A DNA stretch of 64,000 bases, taken from Haliclona indistincta. Its lineage: Eukaryota; Porifera; Demospongiae; Haplosclerida; Chalinidae. The notes beneath the pieces are model-generated. The model saw nothing but the letters and a program-made list of their open reading frames with translations, was not told the DNA's origin and did not search any database. The translations under genes and the position numbers were made by a program. Each line of letters begins with the position of its first letter. Position 1 is the stretch's first letter. Below are positions 26,785 to 34,544 of this stretch, in pieces. The stretch covers positions 8,969,761 to 9,033,760 of the forward strand of contig OZ024788.1 in NCBI GenBank assembly GCA_964017065.1. The letters run 5' to 3'.

Positions 26785-28750
26785 ACTGAGCTGTGTGTTT
26801 AATAGTGGCATGGTATGCTTTACTAACAGAGCTGTGTGTTAGTGTATGCTTTACTGACTGAGCTGTGTGTTAGTGTATGCTTTACTGACAGAGCTGTGTG
26901 TTAGTGTATGCTTAACTGACAGAGCTGTGTGTTAGTGTTTGCTTTACTGACAGAGCTGTGTTTTAGTGTATGCTTTACTGACAGAGCTGTGTGTTAGTGT
27001 ATGCTTTACTGACAGAGCTGTGTGTTAGTGTATGCTTTACTGACAGAGCTGTGTGTTAGTGTTTGCTTTACTGACTGAGCTGTGTGTTAGTGTATGCTTT
27101 ACTGACAGAGCTGTGTTTTAGTGTATGCTTTACTGACTGAGCTGTGTGTTAGTGTATGCTTTACTGACTGCGGAGCTGTGTGTTAGTGTATGCTTTACTG
27201 ACTGTGGAGCTGTGTGTTAGTGTGTGTGCTTTACTGACCGAGCTGTGTGTTAGTGTATGTGCTTTACTGACTGAGCTGTGTGTGAGTGTATGTGCTTTAC
27301 TGCCTGAGCTGTGTGTTAGTGTATGTGCTTTACTGACCGGCTGAGCTGTGTGTTAGTGTTTGTGCTTTACTGACTGAGCTGTGTGTGAGTGTATGTGCTT
27401 TACTGACTGAGCTGTGTGTGAGTGTATGTGCTTTACTGCCTGAGCTGTGTGTTAGTGTATGTGCTTTACTGACCGGCTGAGCTGTGTGTTAGTGTTTGTG
27501 CTTTACTGACTGAGCTGTGTGTGAGTGTATGTGCTTTACTGACTGAGCTGTGTGTGAGTGTATGTGCTTTACTGCCTGAGCTGTGTGTTAGTGTATGTGC
27601 TTTACTGACCGGCTGAGCTGTGTGTTAGTGTATGTGCTTTACTGACCGGCTGAGCTGTGTGTTAGTGTATGTGCTTTACTGACTGAGCTGTGTGTGAGTG
27701 TATGTGCTTTACTGCCTGAGCTGTGTGTTAGTGTATGTGCTTTACTGACCGGCTGAGCTGTGTGTTAGTGTATGTGCTTTACTGACCGGCTGAGCTGTGT
27801 GTTAGTGTATGTGCTTTACTGACTGAGCTGTGTGTTAGTGTGTGTGCTTTACTGACCGGCTGAGCTGTGTGTGAGTGTATGTGCTTTACTGACCGGCTGA
27901 GCTGTGTGTTAGTGTATGTGCTTTACTGACCGGCTGAGCTGTGTGTTAGTGTATGTGCTTTACTGACTGAGCTGTGTGTTAGTGTATGTGCTTTACTGAC
28001 TGAGCTGTGTGTGAGTGTATGTGCTTTACTGACTGAGCTGTGTGTTAGTGTGTGTGCTTTACTGACCGGCTGAGCTGTGTGTTAGTGTGTGTGCTTTACT
28101 GACTGAGCTGTGTGTTAGTGTGTGTGCTTTACTGACCGGCTGAGCTGTGTGTTAGTGTATGTGCTTTACTGACTGAGCTGTGTGTTAGTGTGTGTGCTTT
28201 ACTGACCGGCTGAGCTGTGTGTTAGTGTATGTGCTTTACTGACCGGCTGAGCTGTGTGTTAGTGTATGTGCTTTACTGACCGGCTGAGCTGTGTGTTAGT
28301 GTATGTGCTTTACTGACTGAGCTGTGTGTTAGTGTATGTGCTTTACTGACTGAGCTGTGTGTGAGTGTATGTGCTTTACTGCCTGAGCTGTGTGTTAGTG
28401 TATGTGCTTTACTGACCGGCTGAGCTGTGTGTTAGTGTATGTGCTTTACTGACCGGCTGAGCTGTGTGTTAGTGTATGTGCTTTACTGACTGAGCTGTGT
28501 GTTAGTGTGTGTGCTTTACTGACCGGCTGAGCTGTGTGTTAGTGTATGTGCTTTACTGACTGAGCTGTGTGTTAGTGTATGTGCTTTACTGACCGGCTGA
28601 GCTGTGTGTTAGTGTATGTGCTTTACTGACTGAGCTGTGTGTTAGTGTGTGTGCTTTACTGACTGAGCTGTGTGTTAGTGTATGTGCTTTACTGACTGAG
28701 CTGTGTGTGAGTGTGTGCTTTACTGACTGCGGAGCTGTGTGTTAGTGTAT
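26785..28750. repeat. Large minisatellite (about 2 kb)
   Basis: More than 50 tandem copies of a roughly 31-39-bp unit built on GAGCTGTGTGTTAGTGTATG and TGCTTTACTGACTGAG are present. Variants alternate between a plain ACTGACTGAG and a longer ACTGACCGGCTGAG form. The longer form clusters in the distal two thirds, and some variants recur in register over several units, indicating higher-order duplication. No long open frame crosses it. Confidence 0.97.
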
Positions 28751-29621
28751 ATGCATCAAGCAACGCAGCTCTTGGTAATTAGCTAGCTCTAGCGTGTCTT
28801 GATGTTGACCAGAGCGGGGAAATTTGGCCTTGATTGCTTCGATCAGCAAATCTTGACCGCTGTCACAGATGTAAGTACAGGACCAATTGGAGCGACCGCC
28901 CCTTGTTCAACACATTATGTATGACACTATAATTATTATATATGTTCTGTTACTAGACCGTACACATAAATTGGCTGGAGTTGATTAATCTTTTGTTTTG
29001 TTTCTCTTATCTTCTTATGGTCAGACTGATACACTGTTGTGCACAACTGATAGAGAATGTTAACCACACTTCACATGAAGGTCAGCCATGAACATGAACA
29101 GCATTGCAAAAATTTTAATGCTTTACTTCATGACAGTTCCTCATCATGCAGTCTCTTATTATTGCAGACAGTGGCAGACTCACTTCATAGGTATGTGTGA
29201 CACTTTTCTCTACCTCTCTCTGGTGTTTATTCTTTCACTCTCTAGATTGATCTCTGTAACTACCAAACATGGGAGAAGCGAGTCACAGTATGTGCATGTG
29301 TGACAGTGATTCTATATCTCCTCTCTTTCCTTCCCTAGAGATCTCTCTCACTCCTCCCACTTCCTCCACCCCCATAATTTCTCTGTATTTCTTGTTTCCT
29401 CGCTCTTTCTCACCTCTCTCATTTCTATTCACCTCCCTCACACACTTTTTCTCTCTCTACCACAACTGCACACAGTCATAGCTGACTGTCATAGGGCATA
29501 GATAAATACCCCCATCATGTATAGGATGCTCCAATTGGTCCTGCATATGATTTTTGCACATTAGTGCGGGCAATCAGTGTTGGGCTGAATTTCTCTGAAG
29601 TTGATGTTTCTTGTTACGTCG
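28751..29621. other. Interval between minisatellite and transposon
   Basis: No supported gene. Pyrimidine-rich DNA (CTCTCT, TCCTCC) fills 29200-29470. The motif CATAGATAAATACCC near 29497 is mirrored at about 35166 (GGGTATTTATCTATG), just outside the other end of the transposon. Confidence 0.45.
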
Positions 29622-29817
29622 TTAAGGGTGCTCGGTCATTATTAATATTCATGAGCCGGCTGCTTTGGAATGTAATTTTGCTGTGTTATTCCATTACATA
29701 ACGTACATACCACATAAAATGAATATTGTTATAAAACTACGAGTTGGCGCACTCAATACAAACTAACGCGGGAATTGTTGGCGGTCAAAAGATCAGCTGT
29801 GCATATGAAAAACTAGG

Positions 29818-32800
29818 ATGCCTAAATACAGGAAGAAATGTCGAACAAAGCAAGCTACTTTGGTTCGCTGGTTTCCATACATGCCTAAACATAACAGTGA
29901 GTACATATCCAAGTAGTAGAATCAACAAGGTGTTTTTATTTTATAAATATTGTAATACAGCTGAAAATACTTCAGCTATCAACGATTACTTCGACAACGC
30001 CATAACAATCAATCCTCTATCCACTGCTTTATCTTTGCCACCTCTTGAGATATCACCGCCCACCACTCCACTGTCGGTTCTCGAGTCGCCTCCGATATCA
30101 CCGCCCACCACTCCACTGCCTGTTCTCGAGTCAACTCCGATGTCTCTGTCCACCACTCCACTGCCTGTTCTCGAGTCAACTCCGATGTCTCTGTCCACCA
30201 CTCCACTGCCTGTTCTCGAGTCAACTCCGATGTCTTTGTCCACCACTCCACTGCCTGTTCTCGAGTCAACTCCGATGTCACTGTCCACCACTCCACTGTC
30301 TGTTTTCGAGTCAACTCCGATGTCACTGTCCACCACTCCACTGTCTGTTTTCGAGTCAACTCCGATGTCACTGTCCACCACTCCACTGCCTCCTTCTGAG
30401 TCCACACTGCCATCTCTTTCTTCTATTCTTGATACTCATCCATGCACGTACGCAACTAGTAGCCTTGACAATAGAATCATAGCAGCAGTCGAAGGAGAGT
30501 CTCACACATATAGGTCCCTAGGCGCAATGCCAAATATTACAGATAGCTTCACCACAATGATTTTGAATGGTCAACCACCCAAAATTTCTGGATCCCCCCG
30601 CAAGTCATGGCTGGTCAATTACACAGTACTGTCATTCATAATGAATGGACAACTGTATAGCGAATACAAACGAATTGGACATATGATCGGCATTCCCACT
30701 TGCTCCGAGTCTCAATGGCAAAGAATTGTTCAATGGCTTGGTAAGCACGTTCAAAGGTTAGCAGATTGGTCGTGTGAATAAGTGAGGAAGAGAATAATAG
30801 AACGTGGGGACCAAGAGCATTGGGTAGCCTCATATGACGGCTACTATCTCACACGTGGGCACCACTCCAACAACTCCTCGGCAACTTTACATGATTATAC
30901 CACAGGCAAGATAGCATGGTATGCACATAGAACCAAACGTGGAGTTGGTCACAATTGGGAGGGCACAAGTAATGCAGCTGAGGCAGACATGTTTGAAGAG
31001 ATTCTTGCCGGGGTAAAAAATGAAGGGTTCAATATCTCCGAGATCATCAATGACAAAGATTCATCCTTGAACTCAATTTTTTGTCAACATTTTCCAGAAG
31101 AAACGGTGACATATTGTAGCAACCACAGTGCAAAAACCTTCCACAAAGATTTGCTGAAAGTACGGCAGTCAAAGTGTGAAGTGAGTACAAACACACCAGT
31201 ATACATTGATCTGTAAAATATTCTTGTTTTCTATGCAGTGCAAAGCTGAGGGTCTTCCAAAGTGTAAGAGAATGAATGATGCTTTTCTAAATAGTTGCAA
31301 AGCAGCACTTTCAAACCTCATTGCTTCTGACAGGATCTATGAGACTGACGATCCTTACTCAGCATTCTCAGACGGAGTTCGAAATTTTTTAAATCACTAC
31401 TGCTTGAATGATCACTCTTCACCTTGGTGTCATCATGATAAGGTACATCTACAAGTATAAAACAATTGTTTTATAAACACATACATTATGCAGGAAAAAG
31501 ATGGCAATCCATACAAAGTTCACAATGGCTTTACGTGTAAAGCACAAATGGATGCTTTTGAAGAGCTGCTGGGAAGGATAGCCAACATACCCCAGGATTA
31601 TGTTACACCTGCTGGTCGCAAGACTACAAATGCTGTTGAGGGGTTCCATGGCTTATCATTGATGTATCGTGACAAGCGCACAGATCTAGGCCATAGGCAT
31701 TACACATGTAAAACTAACATGGGTATCTGTCACAAGGTGCGGCATTAGCTTACCATTACCATTATAATAAAGTAATGTGCTTGTTCAGAATCTTGGTCCA
31801 GTCTGGAAAGCCATCTGTTGCTTTACCATGGGAGTACCTGTTCCTTCTGTGGCATTGGAGGGCATCCTTGAAGAGCATAGGATATGGAAAAACTCTCGAA
31901 CCAAGAGAACACAAAAAGAACACCATAGTAGGAGGTAAAAGATACTGTAAAAGAAAGAAAATATTATGTATTGTTGTATACACTAGGAATAAGCAAAAGA
32001 GGGTGAAGAATGCAAGGCATGCTCAAGAGAAAGAGTACATGGAACAGCTACGTGGAGTAGGAGTGTCTGTGGGTGAATACATAGGTCAAGGTATGGGAGA
32101 CACTGAGATAGAAGAAGCTGATAAAGAGGCTGGTCAAGAAGACAACCAACAGGCTGACAAGGAGGTAGAACAAGTTGATGAACAAGTTGAATTAGAACAA
32201 GTTGAATCAGAAGCCAACAACAGTCAAAATTTAGTACCCAATAGTAGCCTTCTTTTGTTCTTCTTTGATTGCGAAGCAACAGGTCTCAGTATCTACAATG
32301 ACAACATCACAGAATTGGCTGCAAAAGTTATCACAACTCAGTCAACTGTGACTCAGCCCACGTTCTCTAGCTTAGTTCATACATCTCGCCACATTCCTAA
32401 AAAAGGTATAAATGTGCTTATATATTATGGTTAAATTTGTACCATTTACTTGCTTACACTTTATTGCAGTCTCCGACAAAACAGGAATAACAGCATCTCT
32501 GCTCCGCCATGAGCAGCCTCTTTCTGTAGTTTTCCCAAAGCTGCTTAAATGGGTAGTTGACACTACAGAAGAAGCAGCAAAATATGATAATAATTCCTAC
32601 CATCCAGGTACCTACAAAGTTATAATAATATTTTATTATCAATGACCACAGTATTGGTCGCCCACAATGGCTTTTCCTATGACTTCCCCTTGCTCCTAGC
32701 TGAAATCGAAAGAAGGCCTACACAGCTGGCCACTGCAGACCTAATTCACCACAAAATATTCTTTGCTGACACACTCCCCTATTTGAGGAAAGTTAGTATA

Positions 32801-33341
32801 AAGCTATTTTAGGCATTATGATTATCAAAGTTTTTGACCATAGAGAAAAAAGATGGCCACCAAGCTCTAAAGGAAGTAACAAAATTTGGGTTGGAGGCTT
32901 TGTACAAACATTACTTCCCAGACAGATCATACCCAGGTACTTTCAAAGCATTCAAACACTTAGTATAATAAAAGTACCTCTTCATTTTTAGCACACAGGG
33001 CCTTACCTGATGTTGAAGCTCTGACAGATATATTTACACAAACAGATTTTGCTGATATCCTTTCTTCTTTGCCAGTTCGTTCAACCAATAAGCAACTGGA
33101 ACTGTGGTGCTCTCAAAAACAACAGAGAGTTAGAACAAGCCGGCTTCTCCAGTTACTTGGAAAAAGAGTCACTGCTGCCCAAGTCAAGCGGTTGGACAAT
33201 CTAAAACTTGGATACAACACACTGCTACATATTCGGGAAGCATCAACCAGCGACGACAACTTTCAGGACAAGTTGAAAGAACGGGGAGTGCGTAGCAGGC
33301 CACTGAGAGAGAAACTAACTGCTATCATTTTTAAAAAATGA
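29818..33341 (+). CDS. DDE transposase fused to a DEDDh 3'-5' exonuclease
   Basis: The transposon's only gene. The start ATG at 29818 gives a very basic head (MPKYRKKCRTKQATLVRWF). Introns with GT-AG borders and matching phase separate exons, for example 29897-29960, after CE near 31180, after HHDK near 31440, 31736-31789, 31937-31986, and five more in the 3' half. After a disordered STTPLPVLES repeat region come transposase blocks. Candidate catalytic residues are Asp in YDGYYLTRGHHSNNSS (30836), Asp in NDKDSS (about 31052) and Glu in NAVEGFHGL (about 31638). An acidic linker leads to the nuclease: FFDCEATGL (32267, Exo I), AHNGFSYDFPLL (about 32681, Exo II) and HRALPDVEAL (about 32993, Exo III with the His of the DEDDh class). 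The final exon ends basic, at IIFKK. An in-frame TAA at 30779-30781, with the frame continuing directly, breaks this copy between the head and the catalytic core. The nuclease is spliced in frame with the transposase, so one polyprotein is predicted. Confidence 0.82.
30051..30405 (+). repeat. 45-bp coding minisatellite in the transposase
   Basis: About eight tandem 45-bp units encode the 15-residue period TPMSLSTTPLPVLES. Third-position changes are few, so the array is young. It forms a flexible proline/serine-rich spacer between the DNA-binding-like head and the catalytic core. The other five frames are open across it, which explains several long shadow frames on the opposite strand. Confidence 0.95.
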
Positions 33342-33713
33342 TTATTCACGAGAGTCGCGTGATCGATAATAACATTCACGACTACAAGTATACATTCCTG
33401 TGGCACAGTTAGGCTAGCTGTCACTTCACTAGCTCGGTAGACTTACAAAAGTCGATAAAACTTTGGCTCTATGTCTCAAAATCGGCCCATTTCTGCACCA
33501 ATATAACCAGCTACACGCGGCCCATACCGTAACGGAGAGATTTTTAATTACGCTGTGTCTACAGTGCCGGTACCGGCATCCAAAAATTTTAACCTTAAAT
33601 TGCCGGTACCGGCACTTTAAGCAAAAATTGAACGATGCCGGTACCGGCACTCGTGTTATAGTGCCGGCAGACGTAACCTATAAAGGCTGGTTTGTACCAT
33701 TGCCCTATCAGCT

Positions 33714-33800
33714 GGTTCCAGTGGTTCAGCGGTTTAGCACGGTGGCTTGTAGTACAATCGTTCAGGGTTCGATTCTTGCTGTATGCATTTTTTGTTGCTT
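33714..33800 (+). mobile_element. tRNA-derived SINE
   Basis: An A-box-like TGGTTCAGCGGTTTAGCA is followed at RNA polymerase III spacing by a perfect B box GGTTCGATTC (33766-33775). A T-rich tail follows. A cloverleaf is only partly recoverable, so a SINE head is preferred over a functional tRNA gene. A second related head occurs at 37873-37950. Confidence 0.65.
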
Positions 33801-33846
33801 TTTTTATTTTTTTTTTAGCAGAAAACTAAGTTTTAGCTAATTGCTC

Positions 33847-34000
33847 GACGATCCTTAGGCTTAGCAAGGGCCGAAGGCCCGGTTTAGGACACCCCTCCCG
33901 ACGATCCTTAGCTAGGGCCGAAGGCCCTGTTTAGGACACCCCTCCCGACGATCCTTAGGCTTACCAAGGGCCGAAGGCCCGGTTTAGGACGACCCTTCCG
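33847..34000. repeat. Three tandem units with GCCGAAGGC hairpins
   Basis: Three tandem copies of CGACGATCCTTAGG(CTTAGCAA)GGGCCGAAGGCCC...TTTAGGACACCCCTCC. Each can form a short GGGCC-GAA-GGCCC stem-loop. Confidence 0.85.
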
Positions 34001-34020
34001 ACTTTGCGCAGTTAGGAGAA

Positions 34021-34056
34021 GGTTTTTTAGGGTTGAGGGTTTAGGGTTTAGGGATT
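34021..34056. repeat. Telomere-like TTTAGGG/TTAGGGT stretch
   Basis: The run TTTTTTAGGGTTGAGGGTTTAGGGTTTAGGG contains consecutive TTTAGGG heptamers. It is short and internal. It could be interstitial telomere-like DNA or a product of the element's own sequence. Confidence 0.6.
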
Positions 34057-34544
34057 ACTAGTAGTAGAGAGACTAAGTTGAAAGTACGTCGATACCGGCA
34101 TCGTTCACTTTTTGCTTAAAGTGCCGGTACCGGCAATTTAAGGTAAAATTTTTGGATGCCGGTACCGGCACTGTAGACACAGCGTTTTAATTATTAGGCA
34201 ATAGGAGCAGAGATAAAATATGAAACTAGCGTTTATAGATGCTTTATCGCGAAAAGCTCTCCGTTACTGGATTTATCGCATGGAAATACCTTTGTAGTAG
34301 AAACCTCGGAGCCACAGAAAGTTCAGACAAAAAGTCTTTTGAACAAGTAGGCGTGGATTTCTGTACGCCTCTAGCTGTCTTTCCCGGTAAGCCACCGCGC
34401 TAAATCTTGGTATACAAGTAGTAGTACTACCAGTAGTGTTGCTGCGCATCTAGCGACGTGTCAGTAGTTGCTACATATCAAGAGAACTTGGCCCATAGCA
34501 ACCGCGCCGCCTCATGAATATTAATAATGACCGAGCACCCTTAA

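Follow-up and report, generated by a model that had tools for sequence, protein, structure and literature searches.

A Kolobok-type transposon of Haliclona indistincta with a transposase fused to a predicted TREX-like DEDDh exonuclease

DNA transposons that carry an exonuclease are a kind of element already described, and two known systems lie closest to the one analyzed here, a TTAA-flanked transposon at positions 29622-34544 of a 64,000-nucleotide stretch of the Haliclona indistincta genome (contig OZ024788.1, positions 8,969,761 to 9,033,760; hereafter the window). KolobokD, named in 2022, is presented by Kojima and Bao as a Kolobok lineage that encodes a DEDDh exonuclease; they report it from molluscs, arthropods, and cnidarians and expect it to be more broadly distributed (PMC9587614). 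The same source describes its nucleases as similar to Exuperantia, TREX, and ERI1, groups it with lineages that have, past the first catalytic D, a second zinc finger of CCHC type, and defines the termini of the Kolobok superfamily as 5'-RR...YY-3' inside TTAA. The second system is Dada, for which a DEDDy exonuclease domain was reported in 2013 in the transposase of Laccaria and Ectocarpus elements, with the proposal that it processes cleaved 3' ends (PMC3706591). The original prediction for the window, made from its sequence, had regarded an exonuclease as a novelty in TTAA transposases, a view that the KolobokD and Dada reports overturn. The present analysis adds a non-CCHC lineage, a nuclease module of two domains, and three stand-alone nuclease genes.

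A transposase and an exonuclease in one gene between Kolobok ends

The element lies on the + strand, measures 4923 bp with both TTAA flanks included, and shows the 4-bp TTAA target duplication of the Kolobok superfamily. Its terminal inverted repeats (TIRs), TTAA included, occupy 29622-29660 (+) and 34506-34544 (-) and are complementary at 38 of 39 nt; the perfect part consists of TTAA and the next 30 bp, just as first predicted. In both the window element and a second family on C5 described below, the termini read TTAA-GG...CC-TTAA and agree with the Kolobok rule. We then searched the genome with a 144-nt query made of 70 nt of left flank, a single TTAA, and 70 nt of right flank. Among the 40 of 60 candidates that were scored, two were the element's own flanks and 38 were other places matching at 80% to 100% identity, some over partial length, so the element sits in a dispersed repeat. 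The best two matches reached 100% (144/144) and 99%, each over all 144 nt, and the former shows an empty site with a single TTAA and an insertion that was precise at both ends.

Within these ends, splice signals and homology support a ten-exon gene model at 29818-33341 (+), with a single frame of 1009 codons plus the final stop, one of the codons being an internal TAA, and nine GT-AG introns of 44-64 bp. Exon 1 (29818-29896), for which the C5 family has a homologous exon, provides the start codon and a basic N-terminus. Exon 2 (29961-31180; Pfam, model, and motif alignment) encodes 15-residue repeats followed by the transposase core, and its downstream part matches PF20700 (Mutator-like transposase) with an E value of 8.9e-8. 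Motif alignment places the putative first catalytic D at 30836-30838, the second in the motif INDKDSS, and a CxxH motif at 31115-31126, all in exon 2, and the likely last catalytic E at 31638-31640 (NAVEGFHG) in exon 4 (31494-31736). Exon 3 (31239-31442; model and motif alignment) is Cys/His-rich; this conserved stretch lies between CxxH and the last E, where Kolobok transposases have a zinc finger, and is a candidate for it. Exon 5 (31789-31934; model and homology) ends the transposase. The Kolobok arrangement of a DDE triad with C/DxxH between the second D and the E is thus found, and the protein aligns with other Kolobok-type transposases of the genome. The 15-residue unit, rich in Pro, Ser, and Thr, corresponds to a 45-bp tandem repeat at 30049-30391 in the transposase N-terminus, and the number of units differs between the window and its sister copy (see below).

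The remaining five exons, all placed by the model, encode the nuclease half. Exon 6 (31987-32405; PF00929) begins with a linker and continues into the nuclease with Exo I at 32264-32284 (FDCEATG). Exons 7 (32470-32607) and 9 (32846-32936) are nuclease throughout, exon 8 (32652-32791) carries Exo II at 32663-32695 (HNGFSYDFPLL), and exon 10 (32992-33341) carries Exo III at 32994-33023 (HRALPDVEAL) and a C-terminal domain of about 90 residues (homology for exons 7 to 10). All three motifs are complete, as had been predicted, and together supply DxE, the Exo II D, and HxxxxD, that is, the four DEDD acids and the His that point to the DEDDh class. PF00929 (RNase_T exonuclease) was matched with E values of 6.2e-6 on exon 6 and 2.7e-14 on the spliced nuclease half. 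A sequence search of solved structures in the PDB returned mostly TREX1/TREX2, with TREX2 best (32 distinct sequences at E<=0.1), and PolC and TREX2 led the corresponding profile search. Among the best solved relatives of the nuclease half are TREX1/TREX2 and zebrafish Plex9.1 (9MRC, so named in PMC12934764), which come with no transposase and whose solved chains, possibly from shortened constructs, match the exonuclease part only.

With a probability of roughly 80%, we read the window element as a recently mobile transposon of the Kolobok superfamily with a single protein that begins as a DDE transposase, continues through an acidic linker into a TREX-like DEDDh 3'-5' exonuclease, and ends in a C-terminal domain. 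The prediction of one spliced gene within TTAA-flanked inverted ends, with DDE transposase blocks and in-frame DEDDh motifs, is thereby borne out by the ten-exon model and by PF20700 and PF00929. Two points correct that prediction: this copy has a premature stop, and about 635 of its 4923 bp are a later nested insertion. This insertion (33550-34185, no strand assigned) is absent from the sister copy and has long inverted arms that are 94% complementary; its 9-bp flanking repeat TTTTAATTA points to a short element of Mutator-like kind. A tandem array with a 33-bp unit lies some 0.9 kb upstream of the transposon, where it covers at least 28000-28754 of the window and may extend further left. Rfam and tRNA scans of the window gave no match.

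The comparison with Dada sets the two apart, since the Dada exonuclease is described as DEDDy, located between the second D and DxxH, in elements with 6-7 bp duplications at small RNA genes (PMC3706591), whereas the window nuclease is C-terminal, DEDDh, and carried by an element with a TTAA duplication. KolobokD as described has the same TTAA duplication and an encoded DEDDh exonuclease similar to TREX (PMC9587614), and KolobokE, KolobokP, KolobokH, and Kolobok0 are likewise described in that source as Kolobok elements with an accessory enzyme or protein. The element could be a plain further family of KolobokD in another phylum, a reading that we place somewhat short of even odds; its ends, target duplication, and element-encoded nuclease would suit it, as would the wider distribution expected by Kojima and Bao. 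However, the predicted DEDDh exonuclease is not accompanied by the other described feature, the CCHC finger after the first D: no Cys was found between the first and second D, where the KolobokD finger is reported, in the window transposase or in the four database fused proteins aligned with it. CxxC...HxC is present at this place in all three of the genome's other Kolobok-type transposases that served as controls. In the transposase tree, moreover, these three were split from the fused proteins and eight other transposases at 100/100, a division at which long branches meet and in a tree that holds no published KolobokD. The host phyla also differ, the nearest named relative of the window element being from a sponge. 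Because the CCHC finger is absent, the element was not filed as KolobokD; from the aligned sequences it looks like a KolobokD-like, non-CCHC lineage, set apart from KolobokD by the published description.

Copies and relatives of the fused gene

A second fused family (C5) has the same ten exons, with an in-frame nuclease and C-terminal domain. Its ends are TTAAGGGTGC, and the element at C5:14440742-14444955, a span derived from end matches, has ends TTAAGGGTGCAGGCTC. The spliced nuclease halves of the two families are 56% identical (47-66% by exon over exons 6-10). Between window and C5, the proportions of synonymous (pS) and nonsynonymous (pN) differences were 0.77 and 0.30 over exons 6-9 (255 codons), again 0.77 and 0.30 over the transposase (438 codons), and 0.87 and 0.39 over exon 10 (116 codons); as synonymous sites are saturated, no ratio of nonsynonymous to synonymous rates (dN/dS) was derived. 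The nuclease and transposase halves are thus constrained alike between the two families. A dN/dS of 0.59 between the window and its sister copy was set aside, because codon pairing is disturbed by the 45-bp repeat and by frame-shifting differences.

The database protein search returned nine significant matches, all nine with a precomputed PF00929 label and five also with one for PF20700; one of them, from the sponge Dysidea avara (44% identical), is the nearest named relative. All three Exo motifs are found in the window, in the C5 family, and in six of nine database fused proteins; the remaining three comprise one in which Tyr replaces His and two that stop short of Exo III. We infer that the fusion predates the split between the two genome families and their database relatives. 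A chance neighbour or mis-joined gene is ruled out by the ten exons of the C5 family, and given this common layout and the empty site, chance was excluded for the fusion. The transposase-nuclease pair is therefore conserved, as the original prediction had proposed.

That prediction had also held that copies with the same ends and no nuclease would speak for a chance neighbour or a one-off capture. Such copies do occur, in the form of one internal-deletion derivative and of short derivatives, while the C5 family has the nuclease. The former is the sister copy (C4:3751685-3754398), which has both ends and its own frame-shifting differences and does not carry the nested insertion. Of four blocks compared with the window element outside the 45-bp repeat, three are 98-99% identical and one is 96% identical. 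The copy also shows a large gap. Missing from it is about 31778-33275, corresponding to exons 5-9 and most of exon 10, and its nuclease was lost by an internal deletion that also took transposase exon 5. A database protein, P0070, keeps transposase and C-terminal domain with the nuclease core gone, as would result from an internal deletion.

The short derivatives came from a search with the left 100 bp, in which 40 of 106 candidates were scored and the first 30 made loci; leaving out the window, the sister copy, and their two right ends, 26 further TIR loci remained. In 17 of these, a partner end with <=5 mismatches lies within 3 kb, 15 of the 17 being 586-674 bp long and 16 having TTAA on both sides. 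They match element DNA mainly at the ends, most with about 74% identity to its last 330 bp. The other nine have no such partner, with weaker end-like matches in L017, L020, and L029, and no coding match was found in any of the nine.

The sister copy and these short copies are what could be said for a nuclease captured once, as cargo or as a chance neighbour without a role. We consider this very improbable, since it is largely refuted by the C5 family with its ten-exon fusion and runs against the database fused proteins, the equal constraint on nuclease and transposase, and the way in which the sister copy lost its nuclease, together with transposase exon 5.

The proposed reading nevertheless has several points to answer. 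The window copy of the fused gene and the C5 copy each have one stop in exon 2, at different nearby codons, and consequently no intact full-length fused gene was seen in the genome. The window stop (TAA, 30779-30781) lies in the transposase half, at a place where the sister copy has a sense codon; a short intron spanning it was set aside, homologues reading that stretch as coding. Close transposase sequences (>=58% identity) occur at eight loci in the genome, window included, with a nuclease match in only two of the eight. Support for a single group of fused proteins in the transposase tree is weak (51/76), and the database search, in which 8000 candidates were scored, favours long proteins through its length limits. 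All of these weigh against the proposed reading.

Among the close transposase loci, nearly 4 kb of the C9 copy showed nothing significant beyond the start of exon 5, and the match of the C4 copy ends inside exon 6, before the nuclease; three further loci look broken, with no nuclease match there in genome-wide searches. More widely, PF20700 has 101 matches in the genome, representing many other Kolobok-like transposases (L039, L041, L046, L058, L070-L072), some with open frames near 1300 residues and others with a CCHC finger.

Stand-alone nuclease genes and the C-terminal domain

Homology search also revealed nuclease loci apart from the transposons (C2 8973579-8979425, L065, and C3 288980 and 319938). 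Three are nuclease genes with no transposase match in the DNA around them, a tandem pair on C2 and a single gene on C5, and the two further matches on C3 contain internal stops. The frames of C2b and C5b run uninterrupted from ATG to stop. In C2a the nuclease frame is open, with no in-frame ATG ahead of it in the exon seen; its start may lie in an exon that was not found, or the gene may be damaged. All three share four introns at the positions of the transposon nuclease and show pairwise dN/dS of 0.25-0.35. TTAAGGG was not found in the DNA around them, and they lack the C-terminal domain, which in the genome was found only in the two fused genes (E<=0.01). A genome search with PF00929, in which intron-split genes are under-detected, gave seven matches at E<=0.01, one being the window element.

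In a midpoint-rooted tree of 25 nucleases, the stand-alone genes fall together with the genome's two fused families (96/94 with an outgroup, 98/95 without). Another five stand-alone proteins make up a clade (97/91), and a second group, supported at only 84/87, brings together the remaining fused proteins, those five, and two amphioxus proteins. The latter, Branchiostoma P0054 and P0063, are likewise stand-alone; they combine the exonuclease with a portion of the C-terminal domain and sit on a long branch among the transposon nucleases. On this tree the stand-alone genes were probably domesticated from the transposon nuclease, although this is not proven. A related fragment from another genome, P0010, is 68% identical over about half the length, which fits a kept host gene.

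The opposite direction, with the stand-alone genes as the cellular source of the transposon nuclease rather than its offspring, seems unlikely to us but is not without arguments. All four nuclease introns are common, as expected of a captured spliced host gene, and an equally good fit is given by a tree that makes the two fused families sisters and puts the stand-alone genes next to them. A single clade of all fused nucleases was not rejected with the outgroup (approximately unbiased test, p 0.105 and 0.092 in two analyses); without it, that clade was rejected at p 0.024, in a test made after the tree had been seen. Against a cellular source also stand the grouping of the stand-alone genes with the genome's two families, within the wider transposon nucleases, and the absence in all three of a C-terminal domain that other stand-alone relatives have. 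Domestication thus remains the preferred direction.

The C-terminal domain, which follows Exo III in exon 10, is common to some stand-alone database proteins. When six fused and three stand-alone C-termini were compared with hhalign, they aligned over 51 columns with a probability of 54 and a score of 27.7, against 15.4 for the highest of 100 column-shuffled controls. A link to PML_C was set aside: one of 11 members matched PF25244 (E 0.083 over 25 residues), which was treated as no evidence, and of two matches in a genome search with PF25244, neither is the window exon. A PDB search with the domain gave two matches up to E 10, the better one at 0.079 (Swa2p), of no use. A preprint on the PXL domain of PML-1 states that Exuperantia alone of its structural relatives shows a comparable exonuclease-plus-SAM order (PMC12934764). 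As described there, PML-1 PXL and Drosophila Exuperantia have an exonuclease fold followed by a helical SAM-like domain, and the window nuclease likewise has a second domain after it, a resemblance that we take as a lead only. The two are described in the same preprint as pseudo-nucleases without the DEDD residues, whereas the window nuclease has them, and sequence searches with the C-terminal domain gave no significant link to PML or Exuperantia.

As a speculation with rather long odds, a module of DEDDh nuclease and C-terminal domain might have passed between Kolobok transposons and their hosts more than once, taken up by the non-CCHC Kolobok lineage and released as conserved stand-alone genes here and maybe also in amphioxus; the exonuclease-plus-SAM modules of PML and Exuperantia might likewise derive from it.

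Possible roles of the nuclease in transposition

In the scheme that we propose, the transposase would cut at the element ends and join them to TTAA, and the tethered nuclease would act on nearby 3' DNA ends made by the transposase. The role we think most likely, while holding it tentatively, is the clearing of 3' ends or flaps by the nuclease at the sites of cleavage. Resection of the donor break appears appreciably less probable, and we regard it as doubtful either that the nuclease acts against a host response or on RNA, or, to the same degree, that it is dispensable for the jump itself. The original prediction had suggested trimming of ends before integration, which is now limited by the precise insertion: since the inserted ends are complete, with both TTAA, trimming, if it occurs, has to halt where the element ends. 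Their completeness speaks against unrestrained trimming of the element ahead of integration and agrees with limited flank clearing or work at the donor break, the latter having also been suggested.

That transposases can bear nucleases suggests that some eukaryotic jumps include end processing and do not leave it to the host. The window element offers a clean case, with a precise insertion, a fused nuclease that is constrained across two families, and a derivative that lost the nuclease. It further links a transposon nuclease with conserved stand-alone genes, which bears on the origin of TREX-like and PML-like nucleases.

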